Under the pieces are notes generated by a model that was given only the letters and a program-made list of their open reading frames with translations, had not been told where the DNA came from and ran no database searches. Shown here in pieces: positions 2 through 26,003 of a stretch of DNA of 33,420 nucleotides (position 1 is its first letter; every line of letters begins with the position of its first letter). A program made the position numbers and the translations under genes. The stretch is from Thermodiscus sp. (GTDB lineage Archaea > Thermoproteota > Thermoprotei_A > Sulfolobales > Acidilobaceae), in assembly GCA_015521175.1 (NCBI GenBank), contig WAOR01000086.1, positions 1-33,420 on the forward strand, in the 5' to 3' direction.

Positions 2-1120
2 GAGCCTGCCGGCGAAGCCCTAAAGGGTATTCTACAGCTCCACGAGGCTAAGAGGCTTCTAATAGTCTCGGACCCGGTGATCTCGAGGCTGGACTTCTAC
101 AAGGAAGTAATAGAGGCCCTCGAAGACGAGTACGAGATCGAAGAATTCACTGAGGTAGAGCCAGAGCCTAGCATAGAAACCGCCGTTAAGGCCGGGGAGA
201 AAGCTAGAGGGAGGGACGCAGTCGTAGCCATTGGAGGCGGGAGCGTAATAGACGTAGCGAAAACCGCTAGCTTTTTAGCGAAAAGGCCCGGACTGAACGT
301 GGAGGACATCGCCCCCTTCAACCCTCTTGGAATCGAGCTCGAGAAGCCAGTCCTCATAGCAATCCCAACCACTGCGGGGACAGGTAGTGATGCGAGCTAC
401 GGGATAGTACTATCTAAGACCGAGCCAGGAGTGGGAAAAGTTAAGGTAGCAGTTGGCAGCTACGAGGTCATACCCTATGCTACAATACTAGACCACAGAA
501 TACCCGCCGGAGCCCCCAGAAAAATCAAAGCTGGAGCCATAGCAGACGCACTAAGCCACGCCCTCGAAGCCCTAGCAAGCACTAACTCTAACCCCTTCAG
601 CGACGCCCTAGCAGAGAAGGCAATAACACTCATACTAACAAGCGCCCCCAAAGCCGTAAAGGAGAACGATGAGGAGGCCTGGCAGAACCTACACGCCGCC
701 GCAACAATGGCGGGAATGGCCTTCTCTAACAGCGGGCTAGGCCTAGCCCACGCGATAGCCCACCCCTTAGGAGCACTCCTAAGGCTACACCACGGAGCCA
801 CTGTCGGAATCGTAATGCTGGGAGTCCTAGAACTCTACATGAGGGGCCCCCAGGTGTCGGCTAAATACGATAGAATCAAGCGCCTTCTAGAAGTAGTCTA
901 TGGGCTTCCAGAAAGGCCGAGTCTCCTAGACCACATAACCTGGCTGTACAAGGAGATAGGGCAGCCCACGAGGTTTAACGAGCTGGGAGTGGACCGGGAA
1001 AAGTATAATGATGCGGTTTCTAAGGCCTCTGAACTCGCCTATCATGACCCGGATATAGCGTTTTCACCAGTGATACCCTCCACCGAGGATATTCAAGAGA
1101 TATTATGGAAACTATACTAG
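2..1120 (+). CDS. Iron-containing alcohol dehydrogenase, 5' partial
   Basis: This is a group III (Fe-type) NAD(P)-dependent alcohol dehydrogenase, interconverting alcohols and aldehydes or ketones in the cytoplasm. The reading frame is open from base 2, where it encodes typical family sequence, so the true start lies upstream and the first in-frame GTG at 77 is internal. Numbering from that GTG, the nucleotide-binding GGGSVID is near residue 53, followed by PTTAGTGSD. The four metal ligands of the family are all visible: Asp and His in DALSH, His in AHAIAHP and His in LHHGATVGI. It ends about 30 bp before the convergent unknown gene. The substrate cannot be told from the sequence. Family assignment is firm. 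Confidence 0.93.
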   Translation, partial: EPAGEALKGILQLHEAKRLLIVSDPVISRLDFYKEVIEALEDEYEIEEFTEVEPEPSIETAVKAGEKARGRDAVVAIGGGSVIDVAKTASFLAKRPGLNVEDIAPFNPLGIELEKPVLIAIPTTAGTGSDASYGIVLSKTEPGVGKVKVAVGSYEVIPYATILDHRIPAGAPRKIKAGAIADALSHALEALASTNSNPFSDALAEKAITLILTSAPKAVKENDEEAWQNLHAAATMAGMAFSNSGLGLAHAIAHPLGALLRLHHGATVGIVMLGVLELYMRGPQVSAKYDRIKRLLEVVYGLPERPSLLDHITWLYKEIGQPTRFNELGVDREKYNDAVSKASELAYHDPDIAFSPVIPSTEDIQEILWKLY

Positions 1121-1148
1121 ATTATTATATAAAAACATTGGTTGTCGT

Positions 1149-2567
1149 CTATTCCTCTTTTTCCTTCTCTCCTCTTAACATATCTATTAACGGTGCTAAC
1201 CTAGATAGAACAAGCCTGCCTGCGAGATCAGCCATGTCGTCCGCGGCACTATTATGTTCTTGTATTTCATCAAAGAAAATAATGGAATAGTTATCACTAG
1301 TGTTCCTCGCTTTCCTCAATAGTTGCTTAACTATTTCCTTCTCGGCCTTTGAGTCGTCTAGTGGCGGGATGCTTGTGCCGAGGAGTTTGTTTAGGAAGCC
1401 GCGCGGGGGACCTATTCTTAAGCCTACGGAGTCTATGTAGATATTCCAGGGGTATAGTGCTTCATGGCTTCTACCCGTGTACTCTTGGTAGGCTTGCAAG
1501 GCGTCATCAAGCCATGCTTTAATAGTTTCAACAGTCTCCTCGTCTATCTCGCTCACACGATCAACGTAGACCTGGAAGGTGCCATACGCCGGGGGAACAA
1601 AGAACAAAGCCCTCCTACTGGGTGAAAAGCCCAACGGCTGCTCGACATACTTGTAACGTGCCAGCTCGCCCCACGAACTGTCCCATTCCTCTCGAGAGAC
1701 CCCTCCTCCGCCTCCTTCTCTAGGCATGTATACTAGGGCGGCTAGGCCCAAGTCTAGCCGGAGGCAAGCGTACTGCTCTAAGTGCGACCCAGCAGTATAG
1801 AGGCGTCTACACCACCACGTGGATGGGAGCTCTACCCTGTAACTGGCCGGGTACACATCTCCGAATTCCATGGGTTCTAAGTCAGACCTCTGCACAACCA
1901 TTTCTCTCCGGAACCCGTAGCCCTTCACACGATAATATGCGTCGGGAGGGCGTGGAGAGTGAAATCGTATGATGTGAGTAGCCGGTAACACTAGTTTGCC
2001 TTCTGGGCCCTTGTCCCCGGACTTGTACTCGAGGATGTATCTTATCGTGTATTTTCCGGCCTGAGAGACGATGAACAGGTGTTTCTGCAATACGCAGGCG
2101 TCCTCTTCCGGATCCTCCTCCCCCGACAGCTCCACCACGTCTATGCTAGACGCCACAGGAGAGGGTATAACGCGGGCGGCGAACTGGTTAGACCGGAGAA
2201 GCTCGAAGTACCTGTCGCAAACCCTAATAGTGACCTGGTAGAAGCCGGGTAGGGTCTGCTTCACCCCTACTATATCGACTGTGAAAAGGGTGCTCCTATA
2301 CGTGCACCTATAAACCATCTCGTAGAACTCGTACTCATTAGTGAGAACCGTGCAGCCGAAACGATTGAGCGCTAGCTTCACGCATTCGAGGAATCTCCTA
2401 GAAGGACTTGATAGTACCGTGTCCAGGTTGAAGAGTAGCCTCGTCTTTACAGCCTTGTCCCCGAGCTCCATGAGTTCCTCAACGCACTCTTCCAGCCTCC
2501 AGCTGGTCTCATTGTCATAGAAGACTCCCGTCAAGATCCTATTGATAACGTACTCCAATCCTATCAC
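1149..2567 (-). CDS. Protein of unknown function (472 aa), second gene of a two-gene unit
   Basis: I do not recognise the family. The protein is soluble, with no signal peptide or membrane segment. It has an N-terminal helical part with several Cys, a mixed middle section, a glycine run near residue 285, and an acidic, charged C-terminus containing IIFFDEIQEH and ending in a Lys/Glu tail. No nuclease, ATPase or helicase motif can be seen. The GTG start lies 4 bp after the stop of the 563-residue gene, so the two are almost certainly cotranscribed. The Shine-Dalgarno-like GGGGTGAT overlaps this GTG, so a TTG at about 2558 is an alternative start. The motif GGGWCCC, common elsewhere in the window, is absent from both genes. 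Confidence 0.8.
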   Translation of the reverse strand: MIGLEYVINRILTGVFYDNETSWRLEECVEELMELGDKAVKTRLLFNLDTVLSSPSRRFLECVKLALNRFGCTVLTNEYEFYEMVYRCTYRSTLFTVDIVGVKQTLPGFYQVTIRVCDRYFELLRSNQFAARVIPSPVASSIDVVELSGEEDPEEDACVLQKHLFIVSQAGKYTIRYILEYKSGDKGPEGKLVLPATHIIRFHSPRPPDAYYRVKGYGFRREMVVQRSDLEPMEFGDVYPASYRVELPSTWWCRRLYTAGSHLEQYACLRLDLGLAALVYMPREGGGGGVSREEWDSSWGELARYKYVEQPLGFSPSRRALFFVPPAYGTFQVYVDRVSEIDEETVETIKAWLDDALQAYQEYTGRSHEALYPWNIYIDSVGLRIGPPRGFLNKLLGTSIPPLDDSKAEKEIVKQLLRKARNTSDNYSIIFFDEIQEHNSAADDMADLAGRLVLSRLAPLIDMLRGEKEKEE

Positions 2568-2571
2568 CCCG

Positions 2572-4263
2572 CTAAGGGTTCCAGCTATTCATTGTAGTAA
2601 TCCTAGCGAGGACAGGTTTGGGGAACCTTATCTCGGCCCTACCATGCTCTGGATGGTCTATGTAAACGCTGCCCTCTATTAGTACTAGCTCTTCACCAGT
2701 TTTAGCGGCCAAGCCTCTCGATAACGCATCTAGAACGTCGAGGGTGCAGGCTGCTCCCGTGGGTGACTTAGCGAAGCGGTATATCTTCCTTATAATGGTT
2801 TCTGCTTCTTCTAGGAATACGCTGGTAGCGTAGAGTGTTCCCGTGACTCTATAAGCTTCCCCATAGAGTGTATGATTCTCTAGCGTTACTCTGAGTATCC
2901 TCGACGATCTCCACAAGTCACACAGGTTCCTTCCAATGCTTCTAAGGAGTGGCGGGAAGCCGTCTAGACTGCGGGGATCGGAACAGAGCCTCGCCCATTC
3001 CCTTGCTTCCCTAGTCCAGAGCTTCTCTAATACTATTGACCTCATTATCGTGTAGATGAGGTTCACAGGCCTGGTTACATTGACGACTATTTGGCGCTTG
3101 TCTATAATCCAGTGAAGGATGGAGGGTTTCGGGACTTCATAGTCCTCGAGCCTCCCCGTCAGGGCCTCATAGTATTGTGGTTTAATCCCCTGGGGTCTAG
3201 GTGCATCACTCATTGCGAGGAGGGGCTTATAGAGTATGCTATCCGCTTTAACTATTGAGGAAGCCTTCCTAACGTACTCTATTACCTCGCTATCATCATG
3301 TATGCCGGCCGCAAACCAGGCCCACTTATCGGCGAAGAGCATCGAATAGTCGACACGGTAATACTCGGTTCCACGCCTTACTTCTTCATCAATCCAGGGA
3401 AGTAGAGATTGCACCTCGGGGATTCCTATAGACACGCCAAGGAGGTCCTCAGAAGCCCTGAAAACACCGCGCATTATGGCCCTCTCGACGCTTTCCTCAC
3501 CCAAATCCTCCTCTTCGTCGATCTGAGAGAGCTCTCTAGAGATACGCGACTTAACAGCAAGCTCGACATAGTCGAACAACCCTGTCAAAACATTATCCAC
3601 AGCCAAGGCGATAACGGTGTTGTTATAGGCTTCATCGAGGCTCCCATCATACTGCTGTAGCACTTCTAAGACAAGGTCGCCTTGAACCCTTACCCGGCCA
3701 CTACCACCCTTATACTCCCACAGATGATAATCAAAACCCATTAACACGCGGAGAGGCTTCTCGTCGCCCAAAGCCTGGCACATAAACCCTAGCATCGAGA
3801 TGGAAGGCGGGAGAATATGCACAAAGAATTTACCAGTGGGCCTATCAACGCCAACCACAGCAACTCTCACAAGTGGACTGCGGTCGCTGAACGCTGCGGT
3901 GTTGAGAATGTCGCCTAACGAGTCCCTCAAGGCCCTAATAAGCCAAGGACCTGGACCCTCGTTCTCGAGGGTAACGCCGATTAGCCTAAACGGGCTGGAA
4001 AAATACGATTTTAGACTCGATATTAAATAATTTTTATCGAGTAGGGCTAGCTCTCTACTTACTAGACTAGCTACAATATAGTCTCCAACCCTGCCTACAC
4101 GGAGATCGCAGCCCCAGCGGGTATCCATGATGGATAGCAGCCTATCAAAGTGGCCTGGAAGGAACAATTCTTTACCCGGACAATTCTCCGAGCGGTGCCA
4201 GTCCATATACCAACAATGTTTAACCAATTTTTTAACTTTCTGAATCCCCTCTCCCCCAGACAT
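2572..4263 (-). CDS. Protein of unknown function (563 aa), first gene of a two-gene unit
   Basis: The family is not recognised. The protein is soluble and has no transmembrane segment. The N-terminal 30 residues hold two Cys and two His (HCWYMDWHRSENC), which could bind a metal, though this is only suggestive. There is an acidic stretch around residues 245-260 and a Cys-containing region around 445-460. The C-terminus, with VYIDHPEHGRAEIRFP, looks like a beta-rich domain. The ATG at 4263 is preceded by GGAGGG about 9 bases away, which supports this start. It is tightly coupled to the 472-residue gene downstream. The arrangement of two large unknown proteins would suit a complex. Defence, surface or nucleic-acid roles are all possible and none is demonstrated. 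Confidence 0.82.
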   Translation of the reverse strand: MSGGEGIQKVKKLVKHCWYMDWHRSENCPGKELFLPGHFDRLLSIMDTRWGCDLRVGRVGDYIVASLVSRELALLDKNYLISSLKSYFSSPFRLIGVTLENEGPGPWLIRALRDSLGDILNTAAFSDRSPLVRVAVVGVDRPTGKFFVHILPPSISMLGFMCQALGDEKPLRVLMGFDYHLWEYKGGSGRVRVQGDLVLEVLQQYDGSLDEAYNNTVIALAVDNVLTGLFDYVELAVKSRISRELSQIDEEEDLGEESVERAIMRGVFRASEDLLGVSIGIPEVQSLLPWIDEEVRRGTEYYRVDYSMLFADKWAWFAAGIHDDSEVIEYVRKASSIVKADSILYKPLLAMSDAPRPQGIKPQYYEALTGRLEDYEVPKPSILHWIIDKRQIVVNVTRPVNLIYTIMRSIVLEKLWTREAREWARLCSDPRSLDGFPPLLRSIGRNLCDLWRSSRILRVTLENHTLYGEAYRVTGTLYATSVFLEEAETIIRKIYRFAKSPTGAACTLDVLDALSRGLAAKTGEELVLIEGSVYIDHPEHGRAEIRFPKPVLARITTMNSWNP

Positions 4264-12869: not shown

Positions 12870-13703
12870 TTGCTCACCCCCAAAACCCTAGCACTACCAG
12901 CATATCCTCCCAGCAAGCCGGAGGAGGCGCAGGCCCAGGTCGAGGAGCTAGTAGCCCTACACCTTGAGGGGAAGATCCAGGCAGGCCTCGTAGCCTCCTC
13001 ATGGAGTGGAGAAGGCCTAGTCCTCGGGTTCTACGAGGCATACCGTGAGGGTGCCAGGTGGAGGAGGATAACCGGGGGACCCTCATACAAGGCCACAGGA
13101 GCGACTGGGTACGCGGGCCTAGTCTTCGCTAGCGAGGACCTAGGAGAGGTCGCCGAGATAGCAAGTAGGCTAGCCGAGTGCATCGGCGGTGAGGCGTGGG
13201 GTGTGACGAGGATAGGCCCCCCACAGCTAGCCGCTGGAGTCGTCGAGGTGCTCGGAGGGTTCACTCCGGACACCGCGGTTGCATGTGTCCAAGAGGAGCT
13301 ATTCGGTGTGAGACTCGAGGCGAAAAGTGTAGGGTTGAAGTCTACTGAGAGGATTTCGAAGGCATACGCTGCAAAGGGCTGGGTGCACTATACTGGAGCA
13401 GTCGAGATGCCATTCGTCGGGAGGGTTGAGCGTGGGGACTACTGGGTTAGAATGGGTATCGCTGTGACGGGTGACGGCTTCATATCCAACGCTAGGATTG
13501 ACGGAGTGTTCCACGCTGCTCCGCCTAACGAGCCCTATAACCTGGTGAACGCAGTCCTTGGAATGCCTGCGGGAGAGCAAGCATTGGACTTATTCGAGGC
13601 CAGGAGCAACCTCGTAGAAGTGTGGGGCTTGGAGAGGAGCGACCTTGTCGAAGCCCTAGCCAGGGCGATAGATGCTTCTAGTAAAGGTCTAGACGACGAA
13701 TAG
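12870..13703 (+). CDS. Lipoate/biotin-protein-ligase-fold protein, divergent
   Basis: It resembles lipoate-protein ligase A. WRRITGGPSYKATG (about residues 64-77) matches the RRxSGGGxV loop that binds the adenylate. The C-terminal part GFISNARIDGVFHAAPPNE is like the accessory (LplB/C-terminal) domain. The region that should carry the NDV and GKKxxG lysine motif is short, and I cannot find a clear catalytic lysine. It may therefore be a ligase with altered chemistry, an octanoyl/lipoyl transferase or a binding protein. The TTG start at 12870 has no good Shine-Dalgarno. A well-placed ATG at 12848 with GGAGGG is out of frame. Its end overlaps the MoaD-like gene by 15 bp. Confidence 0.6.
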   Translation: MLTPKTLALPAYPPSKPEEAQAQVEELVALHLEGKIQAGLVASSWSGEGLVLGFYEAYREGARWRRITGGPSYKATGATGYAGLVFASEDLGEVAEIASRLAECIGGEAWGVTRIGPPQLAAGVVEVLGGFTPDTAVACVQEELFGVRLEAKSVGLKSTERISKAYAAKGWVHYTGAVEMPFVGRVERGDYWVRMGIAVTGDGFISNARIDGVFHAAPPNEPYNLVNAVLGMPAGEQALDLFEARSNLVEVWGLERSDLVEALARAIDASSKGLDDE

Positions 13704-20760: not shown

Positions 20761-21288
20761 ATGGGTAAGGGCCACAGGATAAGGGAGAGGTACGAGGCCA
20801 CAGCCGCCGGGTACGATGAACTCTACAGGGCCGAGCAATACGAGAAGTATAGCGTAGCGTTGAAGAGGGTCCCTCCAAAGGGCCGAGTCCTAGACGCTGG
20901 CTGTGGTACAGGGCTCCTAGCCGAGTACATGCGCACCGCCGGCTACCTCGACAATGTCAGCGAGTACTACTGCCTCGATTACAGCTGGGAGATGCTACGA
21001 ATAGCCCGTTGGAGGCTGAGCCATATCTGCCCTGGCAAGTGCCACGTTTTGGAGGGCAACGCGATGGCCCTCCCCTTCCATGATAACGTCTTCGACGTTG
21101 TATACAGCTTCACAGTACTAGACCTTGTAGACAATCTAGACATCGCAGTAAGGGAACTAGTAAGGGTCTCCCAAGGCCCCGTAGTGGCGAGCCTCCTAAA
21201 GAAGCTACCCTACAAGGACAAGCTCCTCTCACAGCTTAAGCCGATCGTAGCGGTCACGAGCAAAGACGTAGTCCTAAGGCTCGACTAG
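20761..21288 (+). CDS. SAM-dependent methyltransferase (175 aa)
   Basis: A short class I methyltransferase: GRVLDAGCGTGLLAEYM is motif I, YYCLDYSWEMLRIARWRL is the second strand and helix, VLEGNAMALPFHDNVFDVVY is the third, and FTVLDLVDNLDIAVRELVRV follows. At 175 residues it holds little beyond the core fold. It is probably cotranscribed with the preceding methyltransferase. Several Cys are present (DAGCGTG, YYCLD, CPGKC). The last codons overlap the convergent nucleotidyltransferase gene by 4 bp, in a GAGGGACCCC motif. The substrate is unknown. Confidence 0.82.
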   Translation: MGKGHRIRERYEATAAGYDELYRAEQYEKYSVALKRVPPKGRVLDAGCGTGLLAEYMRTAGYLDNVSEYYCLDYSWEMLRIARWRLSHICPGKCHVLEGNAMALPFHDNVFDVVYSFTVLDLVDNLDIAVRELVRVSQGPVVASLLKKLPYKDKLLSQLKPIVAVTSKDVVLRLD

Positions 21289-21989
21289 AGGGACCCCCAA
21301 GTCATCCTCCTAAAGAAGGGGTTCTCCCTGCGAAGCCTCTCAACAGTCTCCTCAACGCTAACCCCTGGCGGGACCTCGACCTTTAGGAATACTCCCGTCC
21401 TCCCATGCTCCTTCCTTCTAGTCAACACCCTGACCCTCTCAAGCACCGTCTCAATTGACACGCCTACTATTCTCGCGACGAGGTGCTCGTTCCCCTCAAC
21501 CTCGACCTCCACGTGCCCCCCTGGAGTGGGTATTATGAGGCGTAGCTCCTTTGACACTCCAGGGACCCTCACGCTCCCTATTAGGCCCTTGTAGTCTAGC
21601 TCGCCTCCCCACTTGTAGAACTCCCTCTCCCTAGGCCTGAGCCTCGCTAAAGGGTGGCTCACAACCTTCTCCTCCCTCTCGTCAAGGTAGTAGTAGACCT
21701 TGGGCACGTAGCCAGGAGTGGCCTGGACTATCTCCCGGTAGTATACCATGTACCCAGCCCTTTCGAGCAGTAGCTCGACCATGCTGGGGGGCACGGGCTC
21801 CAGTATGACTACGTCTATATCACTATCCTCACGGACGTCTCCCCTCGCGATACTACCGTGTACCACTACTGGGGCTCGGAGGGGCTGGAGAGCCTCTACT
21901 AGGCGTTTAGCCCTACGCCTCTTCTCCGCCAGGACCTCCCAGTGCCTTGGGGTATACTCCCTCTCCTCCCCCAGCCCCTCCCAGGTCAT
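21285..21989 (-). CDS. Nucleotidyltransferase-domain protein (MNT-like)
   Basis: The N-terminal half carries the polymerase-beta-type nucleotidyltransferase signature: VVVHGSIARGDVREDSDIDVVI (GSxxRGDxxxxSDID, about residues 43-61), with both metal-binding Asp present. The C-terminal half, about 130 residues (IPTPGGHVEVEVEGNEHLVA and onward), is unlike the short antitoxin-type MNT proteins and looks like a substrate or partner domain. It is the last gene of a four-gene operon. Its ATG overlaps the stop of the thioesterase gene as ATGA. It could transfer AMP or another nucleotide to a protein, RNA or small molecule. The target is unknown. Confidence 0.82.
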   Translation of the reverse strand: MTWEGLGEEREYTPRHWEVLAEKRRRAKRLVEALQPLRAPVVVHGSIARGDVREDSDIDVVILEPVPPSMVELLLERAGYMVYYREIVQATPGYVPKVYYYLDEREEKVVSHPLARLRPREREFYKWGGELDYKGLIGSVRVPGVSKELRLIIPTPGGHVEVEVEGNEHLVARIVGVSIETVLERVRVLTRRKEHGRTGVFLKVEVPPGVSVEETVERLRRENPFFRRMTWGSL

Positions 21990-22357
21990 CCCTCAACCAC
22001 GTACCTCTCGTTCAGGGCCTCCCCAATTATCTCCCCCTGGGGGTCCCTCGCTGTTATTATGAAGAGGGCCCTCCTACCGTCGAAGGAGGCGAGCCTAGCC
22101 TCAACGATAACCCTCTCTCCGACGCCCACGCTACGCCTATGCTTCACGTCAACCCTATACCCCACACTAGTCCTCCTATCGCCTAGCAGCTCGTCGAGGC
22201 ACATCCTAGCGGTAGCCTCCATGAATAGGGCGAGACAGGGCGTTGACAGGACGAGCTTACCCCTACCCGCTAAGTGCTGGGCCACATGCTCCTCGCCTAC
22301 AGTCCACTCGGCCTTACAGACGACCTGCTCCTCCCGCTCTATGCTAAGGCTGGGCAT
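21986..22357 (-). CDS. FlK-type hotdog thioesterase
   Basis: A 123-residue hotdog-fold protein like fluoroacetyl-CoA thioesterase and its relatives. The Thr-Glu-His catalytic residues of FlK (42, 50, 76) are matched with exactly the same spacing: Thr39 in STPCLALF, Glu47 in FMEATA and His73 in VDVKHRR. Other family features are TSVGYRVDVKH and the C-terminal ITARDPQGEIIGEA. It should hydrolyse an acyl-CoA or acyl-protein thioester. It overlaps the lipoate-ligase-fold gene upstream by 14 bp and the nucleotidyltransferase downstream by 4 bp, so all three are expressed together. Confidence 0.8.
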   Translation of the reverse strand: MPSLSIEREEQVVCKAEWTVGEEHVAQHLAGRGKLVLSTPCLALFMEATARMCLDELLGDRRTSVGYRVDVKHRRSVGVGERVIVEARLASFDGRRALFIITARDPQGEIIGEALNERYVVEG

Positions 22358-23150
22358 ACTCCTCAGCCCTCCTCACGAAGCCCTCGGCTGCGGCAAAAAT
22401 GTCCTCTGGCTCCACCCCAGCGTATTCTAGGAGGCTTATGAAGCTGTTAGCGAGCGAGTATGCAAGCCCTGGGCTGGGCGGGGAGTAGACAGTCTCCTTT
22501 ACGAGGCTCCGGGCCAGGCCTGGAGGATAGACGTGTATGTTCGAGTCGGGCCATAGCCCCCGTATGAGGCCGTCGCTCACGTATCCCACTAGGCCGAACA
22601 CGCTGCCATTACGGGTAACCCTGTAGGAGACTAGGCTACCCTCACCCCTAACGGGGTCTATCCACTCTTCCCTGGAGAGCTTTGAGACAATTGGCTCCAA
22701 TAGCTCTCTAGGAACGGGTTCGTCATCCTCTACTATATCCCATTCCCGGAATGCCTCCTCGACAACGGCTTCAAGGCTGCTAGGCGAGTATAGTTCTATG
22801 AAGGGTTTAGAAGCGCTCTTACCGACACCATAGACGAGACCGCTATATCTCGAGAACTCATCGACCGCCACTTCATATGCCCACTTGAGGGTCCCCCCGT
22901 TAAACACTATGACCCCGAAGTAGTCGCCGCCACTAGCCCTATACTCGCCACCACCACTAGCCCTCCTAAAAACACCACCACTACTCCAAACAGCTGCAAG
23001 ACTTCCCACCGTGACACCGGAGCCGTCAATCCTGCCAGTAGCTACTAGGGCCTCATAGCCCTCTGGAAACCTAGGAGCGGCGAACAATGGTATAGCCGCG
23101 GCCTCGGCCAGGGATAGACTGCCAGCATCGACCAGTAAGACCCTCGGCAT
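22344..23150 (-). CDS. Second lipoate-ligase-fold protein
   Basis: The central motif FRRASGGGEYRASGG agrees well with the RRxSGGG loop of lipoate/octanoyl ligases, followed by a hydrophobic strand FGVIVF. The C-terminal section (VSYRVTRNGSVFGLVGYVSD, then SNIHVYPPG) resembles the accessory domain. As in the paralogue at 12870, no clear GKKxxG lysine motif is present. The longest frame starts at TTG 23168. I prefer ATG 23150 because GGAGGG, part of a GAGGGTCCCTC palindrome, precedes it by about 10 bases. It overlaps the thioesterase start by 14 bp. An acyl adenylation or acyl transfer role is inferred from the fold and the neighbours. Confidence 0.6.
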   Translation of the reverse strand: MPRVLLVDAGSLSLAEAAAIPLFAAPRFPEGYEALVATGRIDGSGVTVGSLAAVWSSGGVFRRASGGGEYRASGGDYFGVIVFNGGTLKWAYEVAVDEFSRYSGLVYGVGKSASKPFIELYSPSSLEAVVEEAFREWDIVEDDEPVPRELLEPIVSKLSREEWIDPVRGEGSLVSYRVTRNGSVFGLVGYVSDGLIRGLWPDSNIHVYPPGLARSLVKETVYSPPSPGLAYSLANSFISLLEYAGVEPEDIFAAAEGFVRRAEEYAQP

Positions 23151-23183
23151 CCTAGAGGGACCCTCCAATCCACCGGGGAAGGC

Positions 23184-23762
23184 CTAGTCGAGCAACCCAC
23201 TATAACGGTCGAGTACATACACCGGTGGGACCTCCCTGAGACTCCGCCTCCTAACCGTCACAACCACCGCCCTCTCATCGGGGAGGTAAGCCCAGTCATA
23301 ATCCTCCCCATGCCTCTGCAACGGGGGCTCCTCACCCTCCTCCAAGTAGTAGTAAGCCTCAACGAGCACTCCGTCGGGGCCCCAGTCCACGCGGAGCCTA
23401 TCAGCCAGGAGATCACTACCCTCTAATGCGGCGAACTCCATTATGAAACCGGGCTCGTCCGGGTCGAACTCCAGCATCTCAAGCTCAAAGCGGCCCCTAG
23501 CCTCCAACCTATCCAGGACTCTCGACACGAGGCTCCTCCAAGCCTCAACAGCGTAGAAATAGACCTCGTCGAACAGTGAGGCCAGCCTGTGCTCCTTCCT
23601 AACCTTCAGGTCGAGCCCCCACCTGGCTAGGTCGCCCGAGTAGGGAGCCATTGATTCAAGGCTGGCCTTAACAACATCCTCAACGCTAGCCTTCAGCCTT
23701 TCGGCAAGGCGGGAAAGCTTCCCAAGAGTCTCCTTGTCAACCTCAACCCTAACCTCTACCAT
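23184..23762 (-). CDS. Protein of unknown function with a possible ribbon-helix-helix start
   Basis: The first gene of the four-gene minus-strand operon. The N-terminus MVEVRVEVDKETLGKLSRLA, then ERLKASVEDVVKASLES, resembles a ribbon-helix-helix DNA-binding unit. The remaining 140 residues are acidic and beta-rich (VLVEAYYYLEEGEEPPLQRH, AVVVTVRRRSLREV) and unrecognised. The frame can start at TTG 23774, but ATG 23762 has GGTGA five bases upstream and is the better start. It could autoregulate the operon. That is inferred only from the N-terminal resemblance. Confidence 0.65.
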   Translation of the reverse strand: MVEVRVEVDKETLGKLSRLAERLKASVEDVVKASLESMAPYSGDLARWGLDLKVRKEHRLASLFDEVYFYAVEAWRSLVSRVLDRLEARGRFELEMLEFDPDEPGFIMEFAALEGSDLLADRLRVDWGPDGVLVEAYYYLEEGEEPPLQRHGEDYDWAYLPDERAVVVTVRRRSLREVPPVYVLDRYSGLLD

Positions 23763-23843
23763 CAGCTTCACCAAAGCCCCAGGGTTAATAGTGAGGGGTT
23801 ATAACCGGGGTCAAACACATACTCGAGTGTAAAAGATAGCGCC

Positions 23844-23885: not shown

Positions 23886-24167
23886 ATGATGACGGCAACA
23901 CAGGCAATAGGCGTCGCAGGAATGCTACTCGTATTCGCAAGCTTCATAGCCAAGAACTGGATATGGCTCTACAGCCTAAACCTCCTAGGCTCAACCCTAC
24001 TGATGCTATACGCGATACTAAACCATGACCCAGTCTTCACAATACTCGAGGCAGGAATAGTATCCCTCCTAGTCTACAGGCTCATAGGAGAGGTGAAGCG
24101 GAGGCGGCTCGAGACTCGGGTTCGATCCTCACCAGAGAGTGTCGGCAGCGGTCAAGCCACTCCATAG
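23886..24167 (+). CDS. Small membrane protein (93 aa)
   Basis: Three hydrophobic segments are visible: AIGVAGMLLVFASFIAKNW, LYSLNLLGSTLLMLYAIL and VFTILEAGIVSLLVYRLIG. A basic, probably cytoplasmic tail of about 25 residues follows. The pattern of an N-terminal IGVAGMLL helix and a central LNLLGS helix resembles the CBU_0592-like family of small membrane proteins, whose function is unknown. A TATA-like box lies 39 bp upstream and two ATG codons stand in tandem. It is divergent from the four-gene operon and precedes the pilin genes. Confidence 0.7.
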   Translation: MMTATQAIGVAGMLLVFASFIAKNWIWLYSLNLLGSTLLMLYAILNHDPVFTILEAGIVSLLVYRLIGEVKRRRLETRVRSSPESVGSGQATP

Positions 24168-25358: not shown

Positions 25359-26003
25359 CTACACGAGCCTATAGGGGCACTCCGTTCTAAGACTGCAGGC
25401 TGAGCATTTATTCCCTGCTGGAGGCCTCGGCTGTACAAGGCCTACGAGTAGTCGGACGGGTCTCGCTAAAAGCCGTAGTATTTCGTCCTCTCCAAGTATC
25501 CTGGTTTTTATGGTGTAGGCCGGGTTTTTGGCTGGTTTTGGGCCCTCATTTTTAATCTTCCATACTGCTTCCCTGAGGGCCTCTTCGTCCCTGGCTAGGG
25601 CTAGTGCGAGGACGATCGTGTCGGGGTCTCTCCCGGTGATCTGGCCTAGGAGTAGGCTTGCTAGTGCTAGTACTGCCCAGTCTCCTGGGTAGTCTCGGAG
25701 GTTGGGCCTTATCTTGCCTCGTATGATTGCTTTAGGCCGGGCGTTTTCGAAGTATACTGCGTCAGGGGTGGTTATTGCTGGGTATCCCATTATTTCGCCT
25801 GCTAGTGTTAGTTTTACGTAGGCTTTTCCCACCCTTGGTATTTGCTTGATTGTTTCAAGGGTTCTCTGTACTATTCTCCTGGCTAGTCCCGGGGTTATCC
25901 TGGTTTGCTTCTTGGCTTCTATGTATGGCTTGTATTCGCAGTATAGCGCTGATTGTATTAGGTATCCTGTTATTGCGCCTGTGTATGCTATTGGCGGGTC
26001 CAT
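25359..26003 (-). CDS. Cas4-like PD-(D/E)XK protein with Fe-S cysteines, possibly catalytically altered
   Basis: The layout is that of Cas4/RecB-type nucleases: an N-terminal ITGYLIQSALYCEY with Cys22, and a C-terminal CSACSLRTECP giving Cys200, Cys203 and Cys209. Together these four can hold a [4Fe-4S] cluster. The core shows the Asp of TTPDAVYF (Asp81) and the Lys of AIIRGKIRP (Lys97). The acidic residue expected two positions before that Lys is Arg95, so nuclease activity may be lost. No cas1, cas2 or repeat array is present in the window. It could be a stand-alone Cas4 homologue, a degenerate structural relative or a DNA-repair exonuclease. Confidence 0.65.
   Translation of the reverse strand: MDPPIAYTGAITGYLIQSALYCEYKPYIEAKKQTRITPGLARRIVQRTLETIKQIPRVGKAYVKLTLAGEIMGYPAITTPDAVYFENARPKAIIRGKIRPNLRDYPGDWAVLALASLLLGQITGRDPDTIVLALALARDEEALREAVWKIKNEGPKPAKNPAYTIKTRILGEDEILRLLARPVRLLVGLVQPRPPAGNKCSACSLRTECPYRLV

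Follow-up and report, generated by a model that had tools for sequence, protein, structure and literature searches.

A conserved gene row of Acidilobaceae links a divergent LplA-LplB-fold protein to an old nucleotidyltransferase of Thermoproteota

The closest described relatives of the central gene of the row reported here, gene C, are the lipoate-protein ligases in which an LplA catalytic domain is combined with an LplB domain, as in Escherichia coli (1x2g) and Enterococcus faecalis (5icl); the archaeal bipartite LplAB of Thermoplasma (2ars/3r07) belongs with them. Gene C is the same as LplA with an LplB domain in its full-length two-domain fold, in the RRx[ST]GG loop and in an LplB-like C-terminal domain, but it is without all three of the other LplA motifs (GGGAxxHD, ND...K.SG and HGTxL) and escapes the Pfam family LplA-B_cat. 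The usual archaeal arrangement places LplA-LplB together with lipS1/lipS2 (PMC10332631), whereas C is linked to a nucleotidyltransferase gene, and its paralogue C2 to genes for an aldehyde:ferredoxin oxidoreductase (AOR) and a ThiS-like protein.

Two other genes of the row can also be set beside known systems. Gene A shares the GS..RGD....SD.D motif with the minimal nucleotidyltransferases (MNT/MntA; PF01909) but differs from them by a long conserved second half, phylum-wide occurrence, a Pelota/radical SAM neighbourhood and the absence of a HEPN toxin. Gene B resembles the fluoroacetyl-CoA thioesterase FlK (PF22636) in a Pfam match over the cut-off and in the spacing of its triad; it is, however, an archaeal single-copy gene that only occasionally stands in the row, and the family name is no guide to its specificity.

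Layout and conservation of the row

The stretch of DNA analysed, referred to as the window (33,420 nucleotides in its whole length), comes from a metagenome-assembled genome (G000) of 1.27 Mb that is 83% complete. Genes D, C, B and A are arranged in tandem on the minus strand (Table 1), and each of them is also conserved as an open reading frame in other species. The junctions described in an earlier note on this DNA, made from the letters alone, are reproduced from the coordinates of the open reading frames: C and B overlap by 14 bp, B and A by 4 bp, and the gap between D and C, given there as about 30 bp, is 30 bp with the ATG start of C at 23153 and 15 bp if the TTG at 23168 is used. The end of A overlaps by 4 bp a convergent gene for a UbiE-like methyltransferase; this gene and the paralogue C2 are both absent from the earlier note.

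Table 1. Coordinates of the genes of the row and of related features in the window, with the evidence for each assignment
Feature	Position	Strand	Evidence
Gene A, nucleotidyltransferase (NTP_transf_2), 234 aa	21285–21989	-	PF01909, E = 2.1e-9
Gene B, FlK-type hot-dog thioesterase, 123 aa	21986–22357	-	PF22636, E = 7.7e-23
Gene C, divergent LplA-LplB-fold protein, 269 aa	22344–23153 (alternative TTG start at 23168)	-	Predicted structure, PDB fold search, HHalign, family profile, motif count
Gene D, 196 aa; weak ribbon-helix-helix-like N-terminus, long helix, six-stranded C-terminal domain	23184–23774	-	RHH_1, E = 0.048; model pLDDT 85.5
UbiE-like SAM methyltransferase	20761–21288	+	PF08241, E = 1.4e-17
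Gene C2, full-length paralogue of C, LplB-like C-terminus	12870–13703	+	HHalign, NCBIfam LplB, tree
ThiS/MoaD-like small protein, adjoins C2	13689–13964	-	PF02597, E = 8.4e-9
Aldehyde:ferredoxin oxidoreductase, adjoins C2	14058–15923	-	PF01314, E = 2.5e-137; PF02730, E = 4.7e-78

Gene neighbourhoods were surveyed in a sample of 60 genomes of relatives. The order D-C-A was found in G000, G001, G015, G017, G023, G031 and G033, C-A without D in G012, and D-C at the end of a contig in G025. Every complete copy of C in the sampled genomes (8) adjoins A, and a ninth, cut copy adjoins D; the overlap of C and A is 4 bp in G012, G015, G023 and G031. In the tree, the C proteins, eight in all, group in a single clade (100/100), separate from C2. 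In G016, G024, G032, G035 and G009, D directly adjoins A and C is absent, so that C is dispensable for A or D in the genera that keep D-A and lack it.

Four genera of Acidilobaceae have kept D-C-A, and the other flanking genes mostly differ between genera, which indicates that the block was kept against turnover. The most frequent neighbour shared between genera is the methyltransferase gene (G016, G024, G032, G017, G023, G033 and G010), which is convergent with the row in the window and lies directly upstream of D, on the same strand, in other genera. Overall, D-C-A is a real unit, a co-oriented gene set of Acidilobaceae, and its genes are probably translationally coupled.

The picture for gene B is different. 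The search of the 60 genomes gave homologues in 28 further genomes, yet B adjoins A only in G000 and G001, and outside the row the homologues have no neighbours that are common across genera. B is a late insertion in one genus (g1) and does not define the row; its scatter over 28 genomes without shared neighbours rules it out as a core part of the system. The earlier note had joined all four families in one operon and proposed a search for their conserved co-occurrence: neighbourhood conservation holds for D-C-A and fails for B, which is scattered outside genus g1.

Our preferred explanation, which we put forward tentatively, is that D-C-A is a real unit in which C is a repurposed two-domain LplA-LplB protein that assists A by binding a ligand or target, with B as a recent insertion. 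It is also possible, though somewhat unlikely, that the genes have separate tasks and share a transcript only because small, densely packed genomes economise in this way. The change in the composition of the row between genera and the lack of an evident common chemistry would fit such an arrangement; the retention of D-C-A in four genera while the neighbours changed, and the constant adjacency of complete C copies to A and of the cut copy to D, speak against it.

Gene C and its paralogue C2

Gene C gave no match in Pfam, NCBIfam or PADLOC. Its structure was modelled by AlphaFold2 from six aligned sequences (pLDDT 72, pTM 0.74), the model being uncertain at residues 1–31, a part of the pocket. 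In a PDB fold search with this model, 33 of 33 matches at E ≤ 0.001 were lipoate-protein ligases or LipB (one of them the mycobacterial LipB), the best with E = 3e-9, and the top matches align over both domains at full length. The earlier note had assigned an LplA-like fold to 22344–23150 and named structure prediction as the means of refuting it; the predicted structure matches LplA crystal structures, and the ligase fold is present.

HHalign of C against the canonical LplA of related genomes gave probabilities of 66–76 for local and 88 for global alignment. The middle part of the global alignment is unreliable for placing the catalytic lysine, and motif counts were therefore used for this purpose. 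The presence of an LplB accessory domain in C is based on the full-length structural match, on the LplB match of the paralogue C2, and on the LplB genes that a C/C2 profile retrieves directly adjoining canonical LplA in G043, G044 and G049.

The motif counts are given in the sequence C, C2, canonical LplA, the last taken from genomes of the same taxonomic order. The RRx[ST]GG loop is present in 8/8, 25/26 (the exception is truncated) and 30/30 proteins. GGGAxxHD occurs in 0/8 and 0/26 as against 30/30, ND...K.SG, the motif of the catalytic lysine, in 0/8 and 0/26 as against 26/30, and HGTxL in 0/8 and 0/26 as against 24/30. In the LplA topology, three strands lie between the third helix and the next helix. 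The C model has two strands at this place, which suggests that the ND strand has probably been lost. With the LplA motifs other than RRx[ST]GG gone and the ND strand probably lost, ordinary lipoyl adenylation by C is unlikely.

It should be noted that two canonical LplA-type genes, G000:C81 and G000:C87, lie at other places in G000. The canonical LplA-type genes of Acidilobaceae are often adjacent pairs (G012:C6:4297-5682, G016:C1:1496181-1497565 and others). No canonical LplA match was obtained in G001 (95% complete), where C is present.

A conserved Lys/Arg in the GVTK/GVGK segment of C could leave room for relocated catalysis. In that case C would be an active but divergent enzyme that transfers a lipoyl, an octanoyl or another acyl group (or an adenylyl group) to a dedicated target, with this residue in place of the canonical lysine. 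The near-universal RRx[ST]GG loop in C and C2, the full LplA-LplB architecture and conservation over a long divergence are consistent with an active enzyme; the absence of ND...K.SG and HGTxL from every member, the strand count of the model and the canonical LplA genes that the genomes already own make it unlikely.

C and its paralogue C2 are related with an HHalign probability of 99.9 (E = 1.3e-32), C2 is the sister clade of C in the tree, and C2 matches NCBIfam LplB with E = 6.5e-4, below the cut-off. Members of the C/C2 family were found in the family of the window and, within the same order, in families f7 and f10. Among 300 genomes of the phylum, matches beyond these families are both short and weak, which is what ordinary LplA or LplB should give.

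In the window, C2 is convergent with the ThiS/MoaD-like gene and the AOR gene. Next to C2, an AOR homologue stands in eleven genomes, which belong to families f1 and f7, and a ThiS-like gene in eight. The context of C2 in genus g5 (L167, L168 and L170, at about 150–3600) is another one that recurs, with a TldD/PmbA protease gene on one side and a radical SAM/SPASM gene on the other. In the literature we found no description that joins LplA with AOR/MoaD, nor one that reads an LplA-fold protein as a pseudoenzyme. A wider proposal, which we regard as distinctly improbable, is that C and C2 represent two lineages within an LplA-fold enzyme class that is new and has a relocated catalytic residue, C working with A, and C2 acting in the maturation of the tungsten aldehyde:ferredoxin oxidoreductase with the ThiS/MoaD-like carrier.

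Taken together, these data describe an LplA-fold family that Pfam and NCBIfam do not name: the members scanned have no Pfam match and only a sub-threshold match to LplB. Its two branches, C and C2, keep company with different sets of genes, that of the C branch including a nucleotidyltransferase conserved across Thermoproteota.

Genes A and D and the possible role of the row

The assignment of A as a nucleotidyltransferase, already made in the earlier note, stands: the protein passes the PF01909 cut-off (38.1 bits against 21) and has the GSxxRGDxxxxSDxD motif within GSIARGDVREDSDID. In 12 A sequences, HGS..RGD....SD.D is invariant, as is REREFYKWGGE, and the second half of the protein is highly conserved. 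Pfam, NCBIfam and PADLOC returned only generic nucleotidyltransferase or MNT matches for A, and a PDB sequence search with the A profile returned only a generic minimal nucleotidyltransferase.

Gene A was found in 45 of the 46 good genomes of the 60-genome sample and in 237 of 300 genomes of the phylum, the latter tally including weak matches to other nucleotidyltransferases; as a full-length orthologue, it is almost always in single copy. Outside Acidilobaceae, its typical neighbours are genes for a site-2 protease, a radical SAM protein, Pelota and RimI, together with PolB or DnaG, and across the phylum no acyl-chemistry gene is among them. The association with C is far younger than A itself. 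This phylum-wide neighbourhood can be seen at loci L113–L150 and L265–L284; no description of an A-radical SAM-Pelota neighbourhood was found in the literature.

Gene D is limited to the family of the window in the 60-genome sample. The match of the D protein in the window to RHH_1 reaches 14.1 bits against a Pfam cut-off of 20.5; ribbon-helix-helix matches with E < 1 were obtained in 2 of 6 D members (best E = 0.0073), all below the cut-off. A fold search with the D model gave no PDB match at E ≤ 0.001, and a PDB sequence search with the D profile gave nothing usable. From these sub-threshold sequence matches, a regulatory role of D is possible, with weak support.

D has become linked to the old nucleotidyltransferase A, as in some genera has C, a protein with an LplA catalytic fold and an LplB lid that has kept RRx[ST]GG and lost the residues for acyl adenylation and transfer. 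On the explanation that we prefer, A would modify a protein or an RNA with a nucleotide, for which AMP is the most likely candidate. C would make no lipoyl-AMP; its old pocket or docking face would hold a ligand or offer the target to A, and D would have a structural or a regulatory part. This service of C to A, through binding of a ligand or target, is our best inference for the role of C, and if it is correct, C would provide a handle on the function of A.

The earlier note had proposed a common chemistry for the four genes, namely one acyl-group system in which C would activate an acyl group and pass it on, B would proofread by hydrolysing wrong acyl-thioesters, A would add a nucleotide and D would regulate. 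The fold and family assignments of C, B and A were sound. B passes the cut-off of PF22636 (81 bits against 27) and has an intact Thr-Glu-His triad at T39, E47 and H73, with spacings of 8 and 26. This is the spacing of the FlK triad, T42/E50/H76; the matches of B to solved FlK structures are weak. All folds are as claimed, the overlaps are tight, and G001, another species of the genus, has the same four-gene order. The system itself does not hold up and is now highly improbable: B is out of the row in every other genus and scattered over 28 genomes, which largely refutes it, C has neither the motif with the adenylation lysine nor those of the acyl carrier, and throughout the phylum A is found with no acyl gene beside it.

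Equally improbable is that D and A form an MNT-type toxin-antitoxin or defence pair with C as a passenger, as the likeness of A to minimal nucleotidyltransferases such as MntA and the weakly RHH-like N-terminus of D, a trait of many antitoxins, might suggest: a toxin-antitoxin identity of A is contradicted by its phylum-wide, almost always single-copy spread, unlike the patchy one of toxin-antitoxin genes, by the lack of a HEPN partner (no HEPN Pfam match among the scanned neighbour genes of A) and by a score of 20.6 bits against the cut-off of 60 for curated MntA, with no MntA or HalB cut-off reached, and A has its own conserved second half.

Two further genes lie near the row. Upstream of D, positions 23886–24167 encode a small membrane protein with a weak LAB_N match, and its homologues in G012, G017 and G023 follow A directly on the downstream side; this protein may be part of an extended neighbourhood. 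Positions 25359–26003 encode a 214-aa protein with a C-terminal Cys cluster and a weak Cas4 match (E = 0.0078), homologues of which lie near D in G001 and G004.
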